Below are positions 3,334 through 8,264 of a stretch of DNA of 10,050 bases, in pieces (the first letter of the stretch is position 1; every line of letters starts with the position of its first letter). The notes below the pieces were generated by a model. That model did not search any database. It had not been told where the DNA came from and worked only from the letters and a program-made list of their open reading frames with translations. The position numbers and the translations under genes are program-made. This DNA is from a bacterium (GTDB lineage: Bacteria; CSSED10-310; JAJRTK01). The stretch spans positions 1 through 10,050 of the forward strand of contig JAJRTK010000111.1 in the NCBI GenBank assembly GCA_024278345.1, read 5' to 3'.

Positions 3334-4038
3334 ATGGCTATGTCTACCGACCTTCGCACGAACTCGACATCTTCTCCAAAGCCCGTGGTTACGCTTTTGC
3401 CCACGGATCTGTGGCACTGGCGCAAAGATCGGCTAGAGTGGCTTCGGGAGGCTCGGGATTCTTTGGTTTCCCGGTGCCGAACCATTGCACGGAAAGTGGT
3501 TGCCCATCGCGTACCCTCTCCGGAAGAAGAGGCGGCGGGCGCCATGGACACCTGGGACTTGATGGCGGCACGGGAGCGGCAACGGCTCTACGCATCGGTC
3601 TTCGAACAGCTTGTGGAAGCATCGGGCGCTGGGCCGGTCTTCGTGGAGAAACTCTTACCACAGCCTGTGGAGCAGGTTGTTCTGGAGGCTGTCCAGCAGC
3701 GCCGGGATTTTCTAGCGGAAACAACCATGGAGGCAACGGTGGATCTCTCCGCTCTCCGAGCCAGGGTCCAGCGGGAGACACGCCGCGTGCTCCGGGCCTT
3801 CATCAAGAAGGTTCCCCTGGCGCAGTGGCAACCGCTTCCACCGGAAAAGAAAGAAGAACGGCTGGCACGCCTCACCGGGTTGGTGGCGGATCGTCTGGGG
3901 CTCAGTCTTCAGGAAATCGTGGACGCCCTCGATGCGTCCATGGATGCCATCCTTCACCAAGAAGCTCTGGCTCTCCGCTCAGCGGCGGACAAGAACAAAG
4001 CGCGGATCTCCGGACAAGGAGGGGTTCGTGACTCCTGA
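3334..4038 (+). CDS. Uncharacterised helical protein in the nuclease-helicase operon
   Basis: The product is 234 aa and I do not recognise a family. It is rich in Arg, Glu, Leu and Ala with predicted long helices, no membrane segment and no signal peptide. Features are a Trp-rich early segment (DLWHWRKDRLEWLREARD), a central amphipathic region (FEQLVEASGAGPVFVEKLL) and a C-terminal helical block (RLARLTGLVADRLGLSLQEIVDALDASMDAIL). The ATG at 3334 is the first in frame after a stop at 3277-3279; its ribosome-binding site is weak, and ATG 3340 is equally possible. A competing frame at 2961-4031 gives Gly/Ser-rich sequence without protein character, so this frame is preferred. Its stop overlaps the GTG of the nuclease gene by 11 nt, implying translational coupling and a shared role. 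It may be an adaptor for the nuclease; that is inference. Confidence 0.72.
   Translation: MAMSTDLRTNSTSSPKPVVTLLPTDLWHWRKDRLEWLREARDSLVSRCRTIARKVVAHRVPSPEEEAAGAMDTWDLMAARERQRLYASVFEQLVEASGAGPVFVEKLLPQPVEQVVLEAVQQRRDFLAETTMEATVDLSALRARVQRETRRVLRAFIKKVPLAQWQPLPPEKKEERLARLTGLVADRLGLSLQEIVDALDASMDAILHQEALALRSAADKNKARISGQGGVRDS
4016..4024 (+). promoter_or_regulatory. Strong Shine-Dalgarno (AAGGAGGGG) fixing the GTG start of the nuclease gene
   Basis: AAGGAGG ends 5 nt before the GTG at 4028, inside the last codons of the preceding gene. This decides the start of the nuclease gene in favour of 4028. The longer frame beginning at ATG 3932 would overlap the upstream gene by over 100 nt. Confidence 0.75.
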
Positions 4039-4666
4039 AGTTCTCGTCACCCTCACCTTTCTAGTGGGCGCCGCTGCTCTGCTCTTCGCCTTGCTACAAA
4101 CTGGCCGGCACCTTGATGAGATCGATCCTCGGATCGGCCAGATCCTTTACGAGGACGTGGCGAAACCCGAGCTGCGGGATCTTGCCACGGAATCTATCGA
4201 GGCCGGGGAATTGGATCTCCCGAAAGTCGATACCTTGCGGTACGTGGACAACCATTTCGCGGCGGCGCCTGATGGAGAGCCCATGACAGTGACCCTTTCC
4301 CTCCAGGGGAAGGCCGACCGGGTGATCCAGAAGCGGGATGGCTCGATCCACATCATCGATTACAAATCGGGAACGTCGGCACGCCCCGCAGTGGGCGTCG
4401 AAACGAAGCTGCCGGACAAGTTTGACTACTACCGGTTTCAGATCATGGCCTACTTCCTGATGTGGGCGCAGTCCCGGGGGAATCGCCCCACTAGGGGACT
4501 CATCGACTTTGTGGATGGAGTCCAGGACTACATCACCTTCGACAACACGGAGGAGATTCGGAAAGAATGTTTTGATCTGATCCGGGAGCTTGTGGAGGTG
4601 AAGCTGGGGGCAATTCCCGAAGACCTCCTGCTGGAGCTTCGGCGGGAATCGGAGTTTCATGGCTAG
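4028..4666 (+). CDS. Membrane-anchored PD-(D/E)XK (RecB/Cas4-like) nuclease
   Basis: The product is 212 aa from GTG 4028, chosen for its strong ribosome-binding site. Residues ~4-23 (EVLVTLTFLVGAAALLFALL) form one hydrophobic helix, then RH and an acidic region, so an N-terminal membrane anchor is likely. Residues ~85-145 carry the RecB-family nuclease motifs: GKAD with Asp97, IIDYKSG with Asp111 and Lys113 as the D-x-K pair, and QIMAY with Gln138 and Tyr142 as the Q-x3-Y motif. These residues bind the metal and cut DNA in this superfamily. The cysteine cluster of true Cas4 is absent (one Cys only) and no cas genes are nearby, so it is not called Cas4. At this length it is a stand-alone nuclease domain, with no fused helicase. 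It is coupled to the gene before it and lies 70 nt before a UvrD-type helicase, which suggests the two act together on DNA ends. Confidence 0.82.
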   Translation: MTPEVLVTLTFLVGAAALLFALLQTGRHLDEIDPRIGQILYEDVAKPELRDLATESIEAGELDLPKVDTLRYVDNHFAAAPDGEPMTVTLSLQGKADRVIQKRDGSIHIIDYKSGTSARPAVGVETKLPDKFDYYRFQIMAYFLMWAQSRGNRPTRGLIDFVDGVQDYITFDNTEEIRKECFDLIRELVEVKLGAIPEDLLLELRRESEFHG

Positions 4667-4736: not shown

Positions 4737-7700
4737 ATGGCGGAAGAAACGAGAAATCGGATTTCGGGGCGCCTCGATGAGGTGAGCTTCACGGCAGCGG
4801 AGCGACGGGCTATCGATGTGCGTTTGGCCGGTATGGATGCCGATGCGCTGTCGGCGATTCTTTCGTTCTCGGGCCGCCTGAATGCCGAGCAGCTCGAGGC
4901 GCTTTTCCACCCTCATGAGGTCTCCGGGCCGCTGTTGATCCTTGCGGGGGCCGGTTCTGGAAAAACGACGGTTTTGACGCGGCGGATCGCGTTTCTTCTG
5001 GCCTCTGGAGTACCGGAGGAATCAGTCTTTACCGTAACGTTCACCCGCAAGGCGGCCAACGAAATGGCCGAACGCTTGGCGGCTCTGCTAGCTCGGGAGA
5101 TGCCCAGTCGTTTTTTTGACACCGGGCGGCTTTGGATTTCGACGTTCCATTCGGCCTGCGGCCGGCTGCTGCGGGAAAGCGTCGGCGGGCTGCCGAACAT
5201 TGTGCGCCTGGGCTATCGCCACCAGAAATTTGGCGTCGTGACAGGCAAAGAGCAGATGCGGCTGGTGCATCGGGCTGTGGAATCGGTTCGCGGCGCGGCC
5301 CACCTCTTCACGCCTAAGCGAGCGCTGGAAGAGATTTCCGACGCGAAACAAAAACTGCTCGACCCGCACAAGTTCTCGGAAGCCGGAATCGATCAAGACC
5401 CTGAGCAAAGGCTCGTGCGGATCTATGTCGCCTACCAGAAGAGCCTAGTGGCCAGGAACGCCCTCGATTTCGACGACATGATTCTCCTAGCCGTCCATCT
5501 CTTGGAAACGGCTCCCGAAGTGCGAGCCCACTACCAGCGGCGCTTTTCGCATTTGCTCATCGACGAGTACCAAGACACCAACATGGCGCAATACCGCCTG
5601 GCGAGCCTGCTGGTAGGCGACAGCAGGGAGCTGTTCGTCGTGGGCGACGACGACCAGTCGATCTACGCCTTTCGCGGGGCGGATATCCGCAACATCTTGG
5701 AGTTTCGGAAGGACTTTCCCAACGCCAAAATCATCAAGTTAGAGACAAACTACCGGTCCAGCATCGAGATTATCACGACGGCGAATAATGTCTTCGACAA
5801 GGCGGACAAGAGCCTGGAGAAGAAACTCCGCGTCGGCCGCCAGACCGAGGGGAAACCGTTCAGCGGCGGGGCGATCCTCCACTACCAGGCAGTGGACCAG
5901 CGGGACGAGGCGGAGTTCGTTGCGGAAGAGATCCAGATCCAACGCGGGCGGGGCGTGGCACTCCAAAACTTCGCCGTCCTGTACCGAACGAACATCCAGG
6001 CGGAACCGTTCTGCGACGTTTTCGAGGCCCACGGGATTCCCTATTCAGTGGTAGGCGGCCGGATCGTCGATGAAGAAATCATCCAAGATGTCATTGCGGC
6101 TTTGCGGCTCATCGACTTCGAGATGCGCCTGCATCAGGGCAAGCTCGACCCGGGACTCGTCCTCCGAGCCCACGATCTGTTCTTGCGTCTACTGCTGGTG
6201 CCTCACACCCGCTTCCGGTTAGACACCAAGACCTTCCAACTTGCGGATCACTGGTACGCCGACGCTCCTGCGGGAAAACGGGGCCGGAGGTGCTCCAATT
6301 GTGCAGCGCTCCTGGGAGGCGCTCCACTGGAAAAATGTCCCCAATGCGCAATTCTTTTGGCCGAGCAGCCACCCATGACGACCATTTCGAGCTATGAAGC
6401 ACTGCTGCACTACCCAGACCTCAAGCCGGAGTACCGGCTTCGGTTCGTGCGGGAGGGAACGTGGGAACACATTCATGGGCTGCTCCAGATGGTCTCTGGA
6501 CTTGCTCAAGTCGCTCACCAATACGAGATGGGGGAGCTTGTGGAGATCCTGTTGGCCGAGTGGGGCTTGAGCTCGCGGCTCAGGGTTTCCGAGGAAGAGG
6601 GTAAACAGGCTCGATGGGAGAAGCTGGAAGCGCTCGTGGAATTGGCCACCGATTTCGACCGGAACTTCTCCCGGAAGCTGGAAACTCAGGCGCTGGGCAA
6701 GCTGCGCTCCTTCTTGCGGTATCTGGTGGAATCGGGAGACGAAGAAGACCGGATCAACTTATTGACGCTCCACAGCGCCAAAGGGCTGGAATGGCCAACG
6801 GTCTTCTACGTGGGCATGGAAGAGGGCCTGTCGCCCCACACCCCTCGGGGCAAACCCGGAAAGCCCCTCCTGCCGGCACAAGCCAGGGAGCAACTTGAGG
6901 AGGAAGCACGGCTCTTCTATGTTGGCATTACTCGGGCGCGGGATCAGCTCTACCTCGTGAACGCCAAAAAGCGCCGCCATTACGGGCACACAAAGAAGAA
7001 TCCACCGTCGCCCTTTCTAGAAAAAATCCCGCCAGAACTGCTTCTGGCAAAGGACCGAAGCCGACCTCGGCAGAGCGGGATCCGGGCCGGGCTGGAGCGA
7101 GCGGCGGCACTTCTGGAGGAGAGAAGCCATCGACGGCGCCTATTGGAAAGCCGCCGCACCGAACAGGCTGAGAAGATCGAGCAGAGCGTTGCCCTCTCTA
7201 TCGAGGCCAGACCATTGGCCAAGGAAGGCGGAACTCCCGCTCTCATCGTCGCCAACCCCGATTTGTACGGAATGGTGGGATCGGCGGCGGTTCTCCGCGC
7301 AATGCCATGGGCGGGAATTGAATTCGCCCACCCCAATCAGCTTACGGGCACTTTGGACCGGGCAGCCAGCCAAAGCACGAGGTACAGGCAACTCGTCATC
7401 GTAGGGCTTCCTGCCCCAAGCGATGATACCCAACGCCTGACTGCCGTGATGGAACTGCTCCAAGGCCATGGCTGCGCCATCCGCTGGTACGATCACCACC
7501 CCTGGAACCCGGACGTCCAAAGGGAAATCGAACGGAAGACCGAAGATCTTCTCGTCCGACCCGATGCCCGATCAGTGGTGCAGATCCTCGCCCGCCGACT
7601 CCTGCCGGAGGACGATTACGCCCACCGCCTGGACAGGCTCGTGGCCAATCGCCTTGGCCCCGCTGAAGAGCAGTGGGGGCTCGACTGGCTCTGCCTCTTG

Positions 7701-8264
7701 GAAGAGCTCGCACCCCACCGCCGCCTTAGCGCACGGATCGGTCCCATCCGGAGACTGTCCCAAAACCGAGCACCGGGTCCCAAGGAACGGGTGCTCATCC
7801 GCCGCAATATCACCCGCCACGCATTGACTGACGAGATGGGAAACCTGGCGCACCGGGAAGAGTTCACCGATTCTGGCCGAAAGCTGCTCATCATCGACCT
7901 GCGGCGGTTGCACAAAGAAGTCGCGAGCAACGGCCAGACCCACTACGTCCTCCTCTACCGGCTCCCCAACCCCGTCCCCCTGAGCCGGCAAGCCTGCCGC
8001 ACCCACGAAGCCGACGCCGCCCTCCTCGTCCACGCACCCGAAAGATTCAGCGTTCACCGCTACAGGCACCAGAGCGGCCTCGATCTGCGGCACCTCCTGA
8101 ATCTCCAGGCCGTCAACGGATTCCCCCTCGCTGTCCAGGGCCACGAATACGCCGTGGGCATGCGTATGCAACTGCCCTTGATGACCCGCTGGCGGGCGCA
8201 CCTGAAATTGGGATATCCCAAGCCCGTGGAAGATCTCATCGCCGAAATGAAGCGGCTGTTGTAA
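4737..8264 (+). CDS. UvrD/PcrA-type SF1 helicase with zinc-ribbon insert and DHH/DHHA1-like C-terminal extension
   Basis: The product is 1175 aa against roughly 720 for UvrD/PcrA. An in-frame stop at 4728-4730 makes ATG 4737 the first start; the ribosome-binding site is weak. Helicase motifs in order: NAEQ (49-52), Walker A GAGSGKTT (Lys76), TFTRKAANEM, Walker B IDEYQD (Asp276/Glu277), GDDDQSIYAFRG (303 on), NYRSS (338), LHSAKGLEW (679 on), FYVGITRAR (Tyr728, Arg733, Arg735). All residues for ATP-driven 3'-5' translocation are present. The stretch between NYRSS and the LHSAKG motif, where subdomain 2B lies, is divergent and holds C519-x2-C522-x11-C534-x2-C537, a probable zinc ribbon. After a charged linker (~750-830), residues ~835-1160 resemble DHH phosphoesterases: NPDLYGMVGS (842 on), YDHHPW (919-921), then a DHHA1-like end with GFPLAVQGHEYAVG (1128-1141). 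Several metal ligands look replaced, so nuclease activity is doubtful. Likely partner of the upstream nuclease. Confidence 0.93.
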   Translation: MAEETRNRISGRLDEVSFTAAERRAIDVRLAGMDADALSAILSFSGRLNAEQLEALFHPHEVSGPLLILAGAGSGKTTVLTRRIAFLLASGVPEESVFTVTFTRKAANEMAERLAALLAREMPSRFFDTGRLWISTFHSACGRLLRESVGGLPNIVRLGYRHQKFGVVTGKEQMRLVHRAVESVRGAAHLFTPKRALEEISDAKQKLLDPHKFSEAGIDQDPEQRLVRIYVAYQKSLVARNALDFDDMILLAVHLLETAPEVRAHYQRRFSHLLIDEYQDTNMAQYRLASLLVGDSRELFVVGDDDQSIYAFRGADIRNILEFRKDFPNAKIIKLETNYRSSIEIITTANNVFDKADKSLEKKLRVGRQTEGKPFSGGAILHYQAVDQRDEAEFVAEEIQIQRGRGVALQNFAVLYRTNIQAEPFCDVFEAHGIPYSVVGGRIVDEEIIQDVIAALRLIDFEMRLHQGKLDPGLVLRAHDLFLRLLLVPHTRFRLDTKTFQLADHWYADAPAGKRGRRCSNCAALLGGAPLEKCPQCAILLAEQPPMTTISSYEALLHYPDLKPEYRLRFVREGTWEHIHGLLQMVSGLAQVAHQYEMGELVEILLAEWGLSSRLRVSEEEGKQARWEKLEALVELATDFDRNFSRKLETQALGKLRSFLRYLVESGDEEDRINLLTLHSAKGLEWPTVFYVGMEEGLSPHTPRGKPGKPLLPAQAREQLEEEARLFYVGITRARDQLYLVNAKKRRHYGHTKKNPPSPFLEKIPPELLLAKDRSRPRQSGIRAGLERAAALLEERSHRRRLLESRRTEQAEKIEQSVALSIEARPLAKEGGTPALIVANPDLYGMVGSAAVLRAMPWAGIEFAHPNQLTGTLDRAASQSTRYRQLVIVGLPAPSDDTQRLTAVMELLQGHGCAIRWYDHHPWNPDVQREIERKTEDLLVRPDARSVVQILARRLLPEDDYAHRLDRLVANRLGPAEEQWGLDWLCLLEELAPHRRLSARIGPIRRLSQNRAPGPKERVLIRRNITRHALTDEMGNLAHREEFTDSGRKLLIIDLRRLHKEVASNGQTHYVLLYRLPNPVPLSRQACRTHEADAALLVHAPERFSVHRYRHQSGLDLRHLLNLQAVNGFPLAVQGHEYAVGMRMQLPLMTRWRAHLKLGYPKPVEDLIAEMKRLL

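Follow-up and report, generated by a model that had tools for sequence, protein, structure and literature searches.

Cdc45 is the textbook example of a dead RecJ-type nuclease that has become part of a helicase, and the role of its dead cleft is debated. Its inactivating changes affect three of the four motifs (PMC4873980). In the active RecJ from Deinococcus, metal A is liganded by Asp83 (motif I), Asp135 (motif II), His159 (motif III), and Asp223 (motif IV), and metal B by Asp79, Asp81, and Asp135; alanine at these positions nearly abolishes activity (PMC4846377). Members of the related COG2404 clade were all described as predicted active in a 2012 survey (PMC3307487), and NrnB from Helicobacter pylori is counted as a member of the NrnB enzymes (PMC12709177). 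Here, we analyzed a DNA stretch of 10,050 bases (the window; contig JAJRTK010000111.1, assembly GCA_024278345.1), which is one whole contig (C30) of a draft metagenome-assembled genome (G000; 550 contigs) from the candidate division CSSED10-310. One uninterrupted open reading frame in it (4737..8264; all features given are on the forward strand) encodes a protein of 1175 amino acids, in which a UvrD/PcrA-type helicase is followed by a linker and a degenerate DHH/DHHA1 domain pair. An earlier note, made from the letters alone, had proposed a UvrD-family helicase and a DHH/DHHA1 tail in one chain; Pfam matches, the uninterrupted frame, homologues, and the predicted fold now bear this out.

A DHH/DHHA1 tail with a degenerate metal site

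Searches with the tail alone (residues 831-1175) against Pfam, NCBIfam, and PDB sequences gave no match, so that its family could be established only through homologues. In a six-frame search of 60 genomes, standalone homologues turned up in five of the phylum's genomes other than G000 (seven of the eight compared), with E values of 6e-35, 1e-29, 3e-27, 8e-27, and 8e-24. These are separate proteins of approximately 390-480 residues with 24-32% identity to the tail, and the matches cover most of its 345 residues. A scan of genome contigs with a motif III pattern yielded 175 relatives; among the best 80, which were kept, the closest came from CSSED10-310 and Auribacterota, followed by archaea. 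In an alignment of 27 members (A2), 24 sequences matched Pfam DHH and 13 matched DHHA1. When the A2 profile was compared with solved structures, 6mtz from H. pylori, which we take to be NrnB of this organism, scored highest (3e-17), followed by archaeal RecJ and NrnA; RecJ from Thermus (1ir6) scored 6e-4.

The AlphaFold model of the tail (pLDDT 94.6, pTM 0.86) superposes on RecJ, a check that the earlier note had suggested; the outcome that it had named as refuting its proposal, a predicted structure lacking the DHH/DHHA1 fold, did not arise. VIA-align Z values were 20.1 for archaeal RecJ-Cdc45, 17.2 for Thermus RecJ, and 15-17 for Cdc45, and the alignments to RecJ and RecJ-Cdc45 span 281-288 residues. 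Foldseek found the same family with weaker TM-scores, as expected where two domains shift relative to each other. Homologues and model delimit a DHH domain (residues 831-955, 7227..7601), helices of the model form a connector (residues 956-1035, 7602..7841), and model and alignment place the DHHA1 domain at the C terminus (residues 1036-1175, 7842..8261). By fold and ancestry, the tail is almost certainly a true DHH/DHHA1 pair. Its initial description as RecJ/NrnA-like holds for RecJ at the level of the fold; judged by sequence, the tail is nearest to NrnB/COG2404-type proteins and not to RecJ proper. It can be ruled out as the RecJ of this genome, as a separate complete RecJ is encoded on contig C131; the RecJ equivalog model TIGR00644 recognizes that gene but not the tail.

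The motif residues cited in the earlier note are exact and fall on genuine DHH motif columns of the 27 aligned sequences. Motif I reads N840-P-D842-L-Y844-G (residues 840-845, 7254..7271) in the columns of HxDxDG, with Asn840 in place of the preceding His and Tyr844 in place of the second Asp. Motif II reads VIVG890LP (residues 887-892, 7395..7412), where Gly890 occupies a position that is Asp in all 26 aligned relatives in A2. Motif III is intact (Y-D919-H920-H921-P-W, residues 918-923, 7488..7505), its DHH being invariant in A2, and the Gly-His of DHHA1 is kept in QGHEYAVG (residues 1134-1141, with G1135-H1136; 8136-8159). The tail has the motif III DHH and the DHHA1 Gly-His of the superfamily and lacks both the required motif I (HxDxDG or DxDxDG) and the motif II Asp. 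In our own alignment mapping to Deinococcus RecJ, Asn840, Asp842, Tyr844, and Gly890 correspond to Asp79, Asp81, Asp83, and Asp135, respectively. Only one ligand per metal is sure to persist; the motif IV Asp, missing in bacterial relatives too, was left out of this count. As most metal ligands are gone, the tail is predicted to be nuclease-dead, and it is a member of the superfamily by descent and fold that is catalytically incomplete. Given these losses, the idea of a chain that would combine the functions of RecQ and RecJ is not supported as far as an active nuclease is concerned.

The helicase and its junction with the tail

The helicase part (residues 1-~789, 4737..7103) was assigned to SF1A (superfamily 1A) by Pfam matches to UvrD-helicase (1.2e-76) and UvrD_C (5.4e-45) and by its motifs, which are intact: Walker A (71-78), DEYQDTN (276-282), GDDDQSIYAFRGAD (303-316), NYRS (338-341), LHSAKGLE (678-685), and FYVGITRA (727-734). 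PcrA was the best NCBIfam model, with 523.6 bits under a cut-off of 911.2 for that model. These features suggest an active SF1 helicase, for which 3'-5' polarity is expected from the family. PADLOC matches to GajB and others proved to be generic UvrD matches. An insertion in the 2B region carries a zinc-ribbon-like pattern (CSNC-x11-CPQC, residues 519-537, 6291..6347) that is missing from nine other aligned helicase genes of the phylum.

In CSSED10-310, most helicases have a PcrA/UvrD Tudor domain (PF21196) at their C terminus. This domain was found in six of the eight genomes and nowhere in G000, and the DHH pair thus occupies the usual position of the Tudor tail. The hydrophilic linker (residues ~790-830, 7104..7226) lies where related helicases carry the Tudor tail and related DHH proteins a membrane anchor. 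It contains no hydrophobic helix; its maximum hydropathy is 0.48 versus mean values of 1.8-2.9 for the N-terminal helix with which the standalone DHH relatives begin.

Neither internal stops nor frameshifts occur across the 1175 codons, and codon-position GC and codon usage are continuous over the junction. Linker codon usage scored -3.91 in the frame of the gene versus -4.21 and -4.18 in the other two, and that of tail and linker agrees with that of the helicase frame. For a separate DHH protein, the linker offers no in-frame ATG and no Shine-Dalgarno-like site near its TTG codons.

No comparable fusion was detected among 385 other genomes, which leaves a single metagenome-assembled genome as the known source of the arrangement. 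Long frames in unrelated genomes gave matches that were weak and partial, the strongest being a fusion without a helicase (genome G064). The latter is a protein of 936 residues (L199:5044-7854) with a degenerate DHH-like C terminus (SHYDRDGVVG, WIDHVYW, QGHENVI) and an N-terminal part without a Pfam match, and represents another DHH-family fusion whose partner is not a helicase. A helicase frame of 1126 residues in G001 (contig C79) was rejected as a second fusion, since its extra part is N-terminal and, by eye, PHP-like rather than DHH. The tail had no match in plasmid and phage collections and one weak match among viral contigs. No description of a UvrD-DHH fusion was found in the open-access literature; likewise, neither the covalent attachment of such a domain to an SF1 helicase nor inactivation inside a COG2404-like branch was found described in the literature searched.

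Standalone relatives and their gene neighborhoods

The earlier note had advised a search for homologues with the same fusion and for conserved DHH ligands. The fusion did not recur, and the ligands are conserved in four of the five standalone relatives and degenerate in the fifth, from G001. The four keep motif I (HTDFDG and variants; R-W-D-F-D-G in G003), motif II (I-A-D-L), motif III (W-(I/Y)-D-H-H-x-W), and the Gly-His of DHHA1. From their N-terminal hydrophobic helices, the standalone relatives are predicted to be membrane-anchored.

Their genes are located in a cluster of the order (deoC)-deoA-comEC-comEA-MBL-(PD-(D/E)XK)-DHH-(cdd) (loci L037:1261-11185, L039, and L041). It comprises deoC, deoA, comEC, a gene for a comEA-type helix-hairpin-helix protein, one for a metallo-beta-lactamase (MBL) protein resembling the C terminus of ComEC and, often, cdd and a gene for a PD-(D/E)XK nuclease of 551 residues. 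In Auribacterota (L055, L056) and in similar genomes (L059, L060), the gene order recurs but the PD-(D/E)XK gene is absent. The DHH gene, deoA, and a strongly matching long comEC are each present in the same six of the eight phylum genomes and are all missing in G004 and G006, two draft genomes with a completeness of 86 and 78%, respectively. The 551-residue nuclease is distributed in the same way, except that G001 and G004 gave partial matches only. In G000, these genes lie apart from one another: contig C57 carries deoA, C466 carries comEC and comEA, C121 the lactamase-like gene, C276 the nuclease, and C30 the fused DHH gene. G000 has two ComEC-like genes, a long one (1073 amino acids) followed by comEA on C466 and one of 792 amino acids with its own comEA-like gene on C17.

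From its gene content, the cluster looks like a system for DNA import and deoxynucleoside breakdown with a membrane-anchored exonuclease. The original task of the DHH family would then have been to digest DNA imported by ComEC and to feed nucleoside breakdown, which would fit the activity of NrnB enzymes as general 3'-5' exonucleases (PMC12709177). No description of a comEC-deoA-deoC cluster was found in the open-access literature. The relatives reveal a conserved gene set that links ComEC import, nucleases, and deoxynucleoside breakdown, so that sequences from two uncultured phyla can be used to test whether DNA is taken up as food, a long-standing question.

The G001 homologue (L041:7257-8591, the same gene as L006:1477-2811) is still in the com cluster. 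Its motifs I and II and part of motif III are lost (QPTLEAMSG, VGNP, and YDNHAW), it shares the motif II Gly with the window protein, and it has no Gly-His; it represents a second, membrane-anchored pseudoenzyme of this DHH family. In the phylogenetic tree, it grouped with the tail with a moderate support of 84/93 on a long branch (2.72). If this uncertain grouping is right, catalysis was lost ahead of the fusion.

In the window, a gene for a PD-(D/E)XK nuclease whose N terminus bears one hydrophobic helix (3932..4666; Pfam PDDEXK_1 1.5e-9; hydropathy 2.64) lies 70 bp upstream of the fused gene; its true start is perhaps near 4013. It has no clear counterpart in the phylum and is not the 551-residue nuclease of the com cluster, which in G000 is the gene on C276. 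Its adjacency hints that it may be a partner that does the cutting. At positions 3-1097, a C terminus that by eye resembles peptidyl-prolyl isomerases lies behind a long repeat cut by the contig end.

Possible functions and comparison with known systems

The reading that we prefer, with a probability of roughly one half, is that the tail is a non-cutting accessory domain that binds single-stranded DNA (ssDNA) or nucleotides, derived from a former NrnB-like exonuclease and attached to an active 3'-5' SF1 helicase. Its ancestor would probably have been a membrane-anchored exonuclease of the gene set for DNA import and nucleoside breakdown. Upon fusion, the membrane helix would have been removed and the domain placed at the usual Tudor position of the helicase. 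The DHH/DHHA1 cleft, with its DHH residues and Gly-His kept, would no longer cut; instead, the two domains may form a clamp next to the motor that grips ssDNA, the end of a strand, or a nucleotide and helps the motor to load, to stay on DNA, or to choose its substrate. Three points weigh against this accessory-domain proposal. The fusion was found once, in a draft genome, so that purifying selection is not measurable; the G001 homologue has lost the DHHA1 Gly-His as well, so that binding need not be conserved there; and the motif IV Asp is missing even in apparently active bacterial relatives, which means that the ligand rules of the subfamily are only partly understood.

Less probable, though the best of the alternatives, is that the tail serves as a protein-docking module that ties the helicase to RNA polymerase, to the membrane import machinery, or to the upstream nuclease, with any nucleic acid binding being incidental. 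The tail takes the place of a Tudor domain that six genomes of the phylum have and G000 lacks; furthermore, the RecJ-type cleft of Cdc45 is closed in the crystal, and Cdc45 contacts other proteins in CMG (Cdc45-MCM-GINS) (PMC4873980). However, a pure docking face would not need the cleft-lining DHH and Gly-His residues that the tail has kept, and G003 also lacks the Tudor domain but has no fusion.

It is improbable that the tail is a live enzyme with an altered metal site, such as a one-metal or Zn/Fe-dependent nuclease or a nucleotide phosphodiesterase coupled to unwinding: Asp842, Asp919, His920, His921, and the DHHA1 His are kept, and the motif I His is likewise missing from the otherwise canonical standalone protein of G003, but Gly replaces the bridging motif II Asp, which in RecJ coordinates both metals, and Tyr replaces the motif I ligand of metal A. 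Equally improbable is that the fusion arose recently by accident or reflects a mistake in assembly or sequencing, with the helicase and a decaying DHH gene really separate or non-functional; this would agree with the single occurrence in a draft of 550 contigs against 385 other genomes and with a window that is a whole 10,050-base contig with no second copy for comparison, but it is opposed by the intact frame with matching codon usage, the lack of a start site in the linker, the intact predicted fold, and the degenerate state shared with the G001 homologue.

A wider proposal, which we put forward only tentatively and consider less likely than the accessory role itself, is that bacteria, independently of Cdc45, turned an inactivated DHH/DHHA1 exonuclease into a helicase accessory: the dead domain would clamp or steer ssDNA for an SF1 motor and would derive from a membrane-bound exonuclease that digested ComEC-imported DNA for food.

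Among known systems, UvrD and PcrA helicases share all SF1A motifs with the window protein, and PcrA is the best NCBIfam model; the window protein differs by the absent Tudor tail, the zinc-ribbon-like insertion, and the C-terminal DHH/DHHA1 pair. RecJ has the fold in common with the tail, which lacks the catalytic ligands and is followed by nothing where RecJ has further domains. NrnB/COG2404 proteins (Bacillus subtilis NrnB; 6mtz) share the order of DHH followed by DHHA1 and gave the closest match to a solved structure by sequence. NrnB enzymes are active, whereas the tail has degraded motifs I and II and is fused to a helicase. Cdc45 and the inactivated archaeal RecJ homologues of CMG offer a parallel, as each has the RecJ fold and damaged catalytic motifs and works in the service of a helicase (PMC4873980, PMC3307487). 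With these, the principle of dead RecJ-type proteins serving a helicase is not new, and the ligand loss in the tail resembles the motif loss in Cdc45. Because the bacterial counterpart is one chain with a simple helicase, it would allow the role of the dead cleft to be tested by means of a single protein and a truncated form of it. The relationship is one of analogy and not of orthology: Cdc45 is a separate subunit of the hexameric MCM helicase (MCM-GINS) and descended from RecJ, whereas the tail is a covalent part of a bacterial SF1 helicase and of NrnB-like descent.

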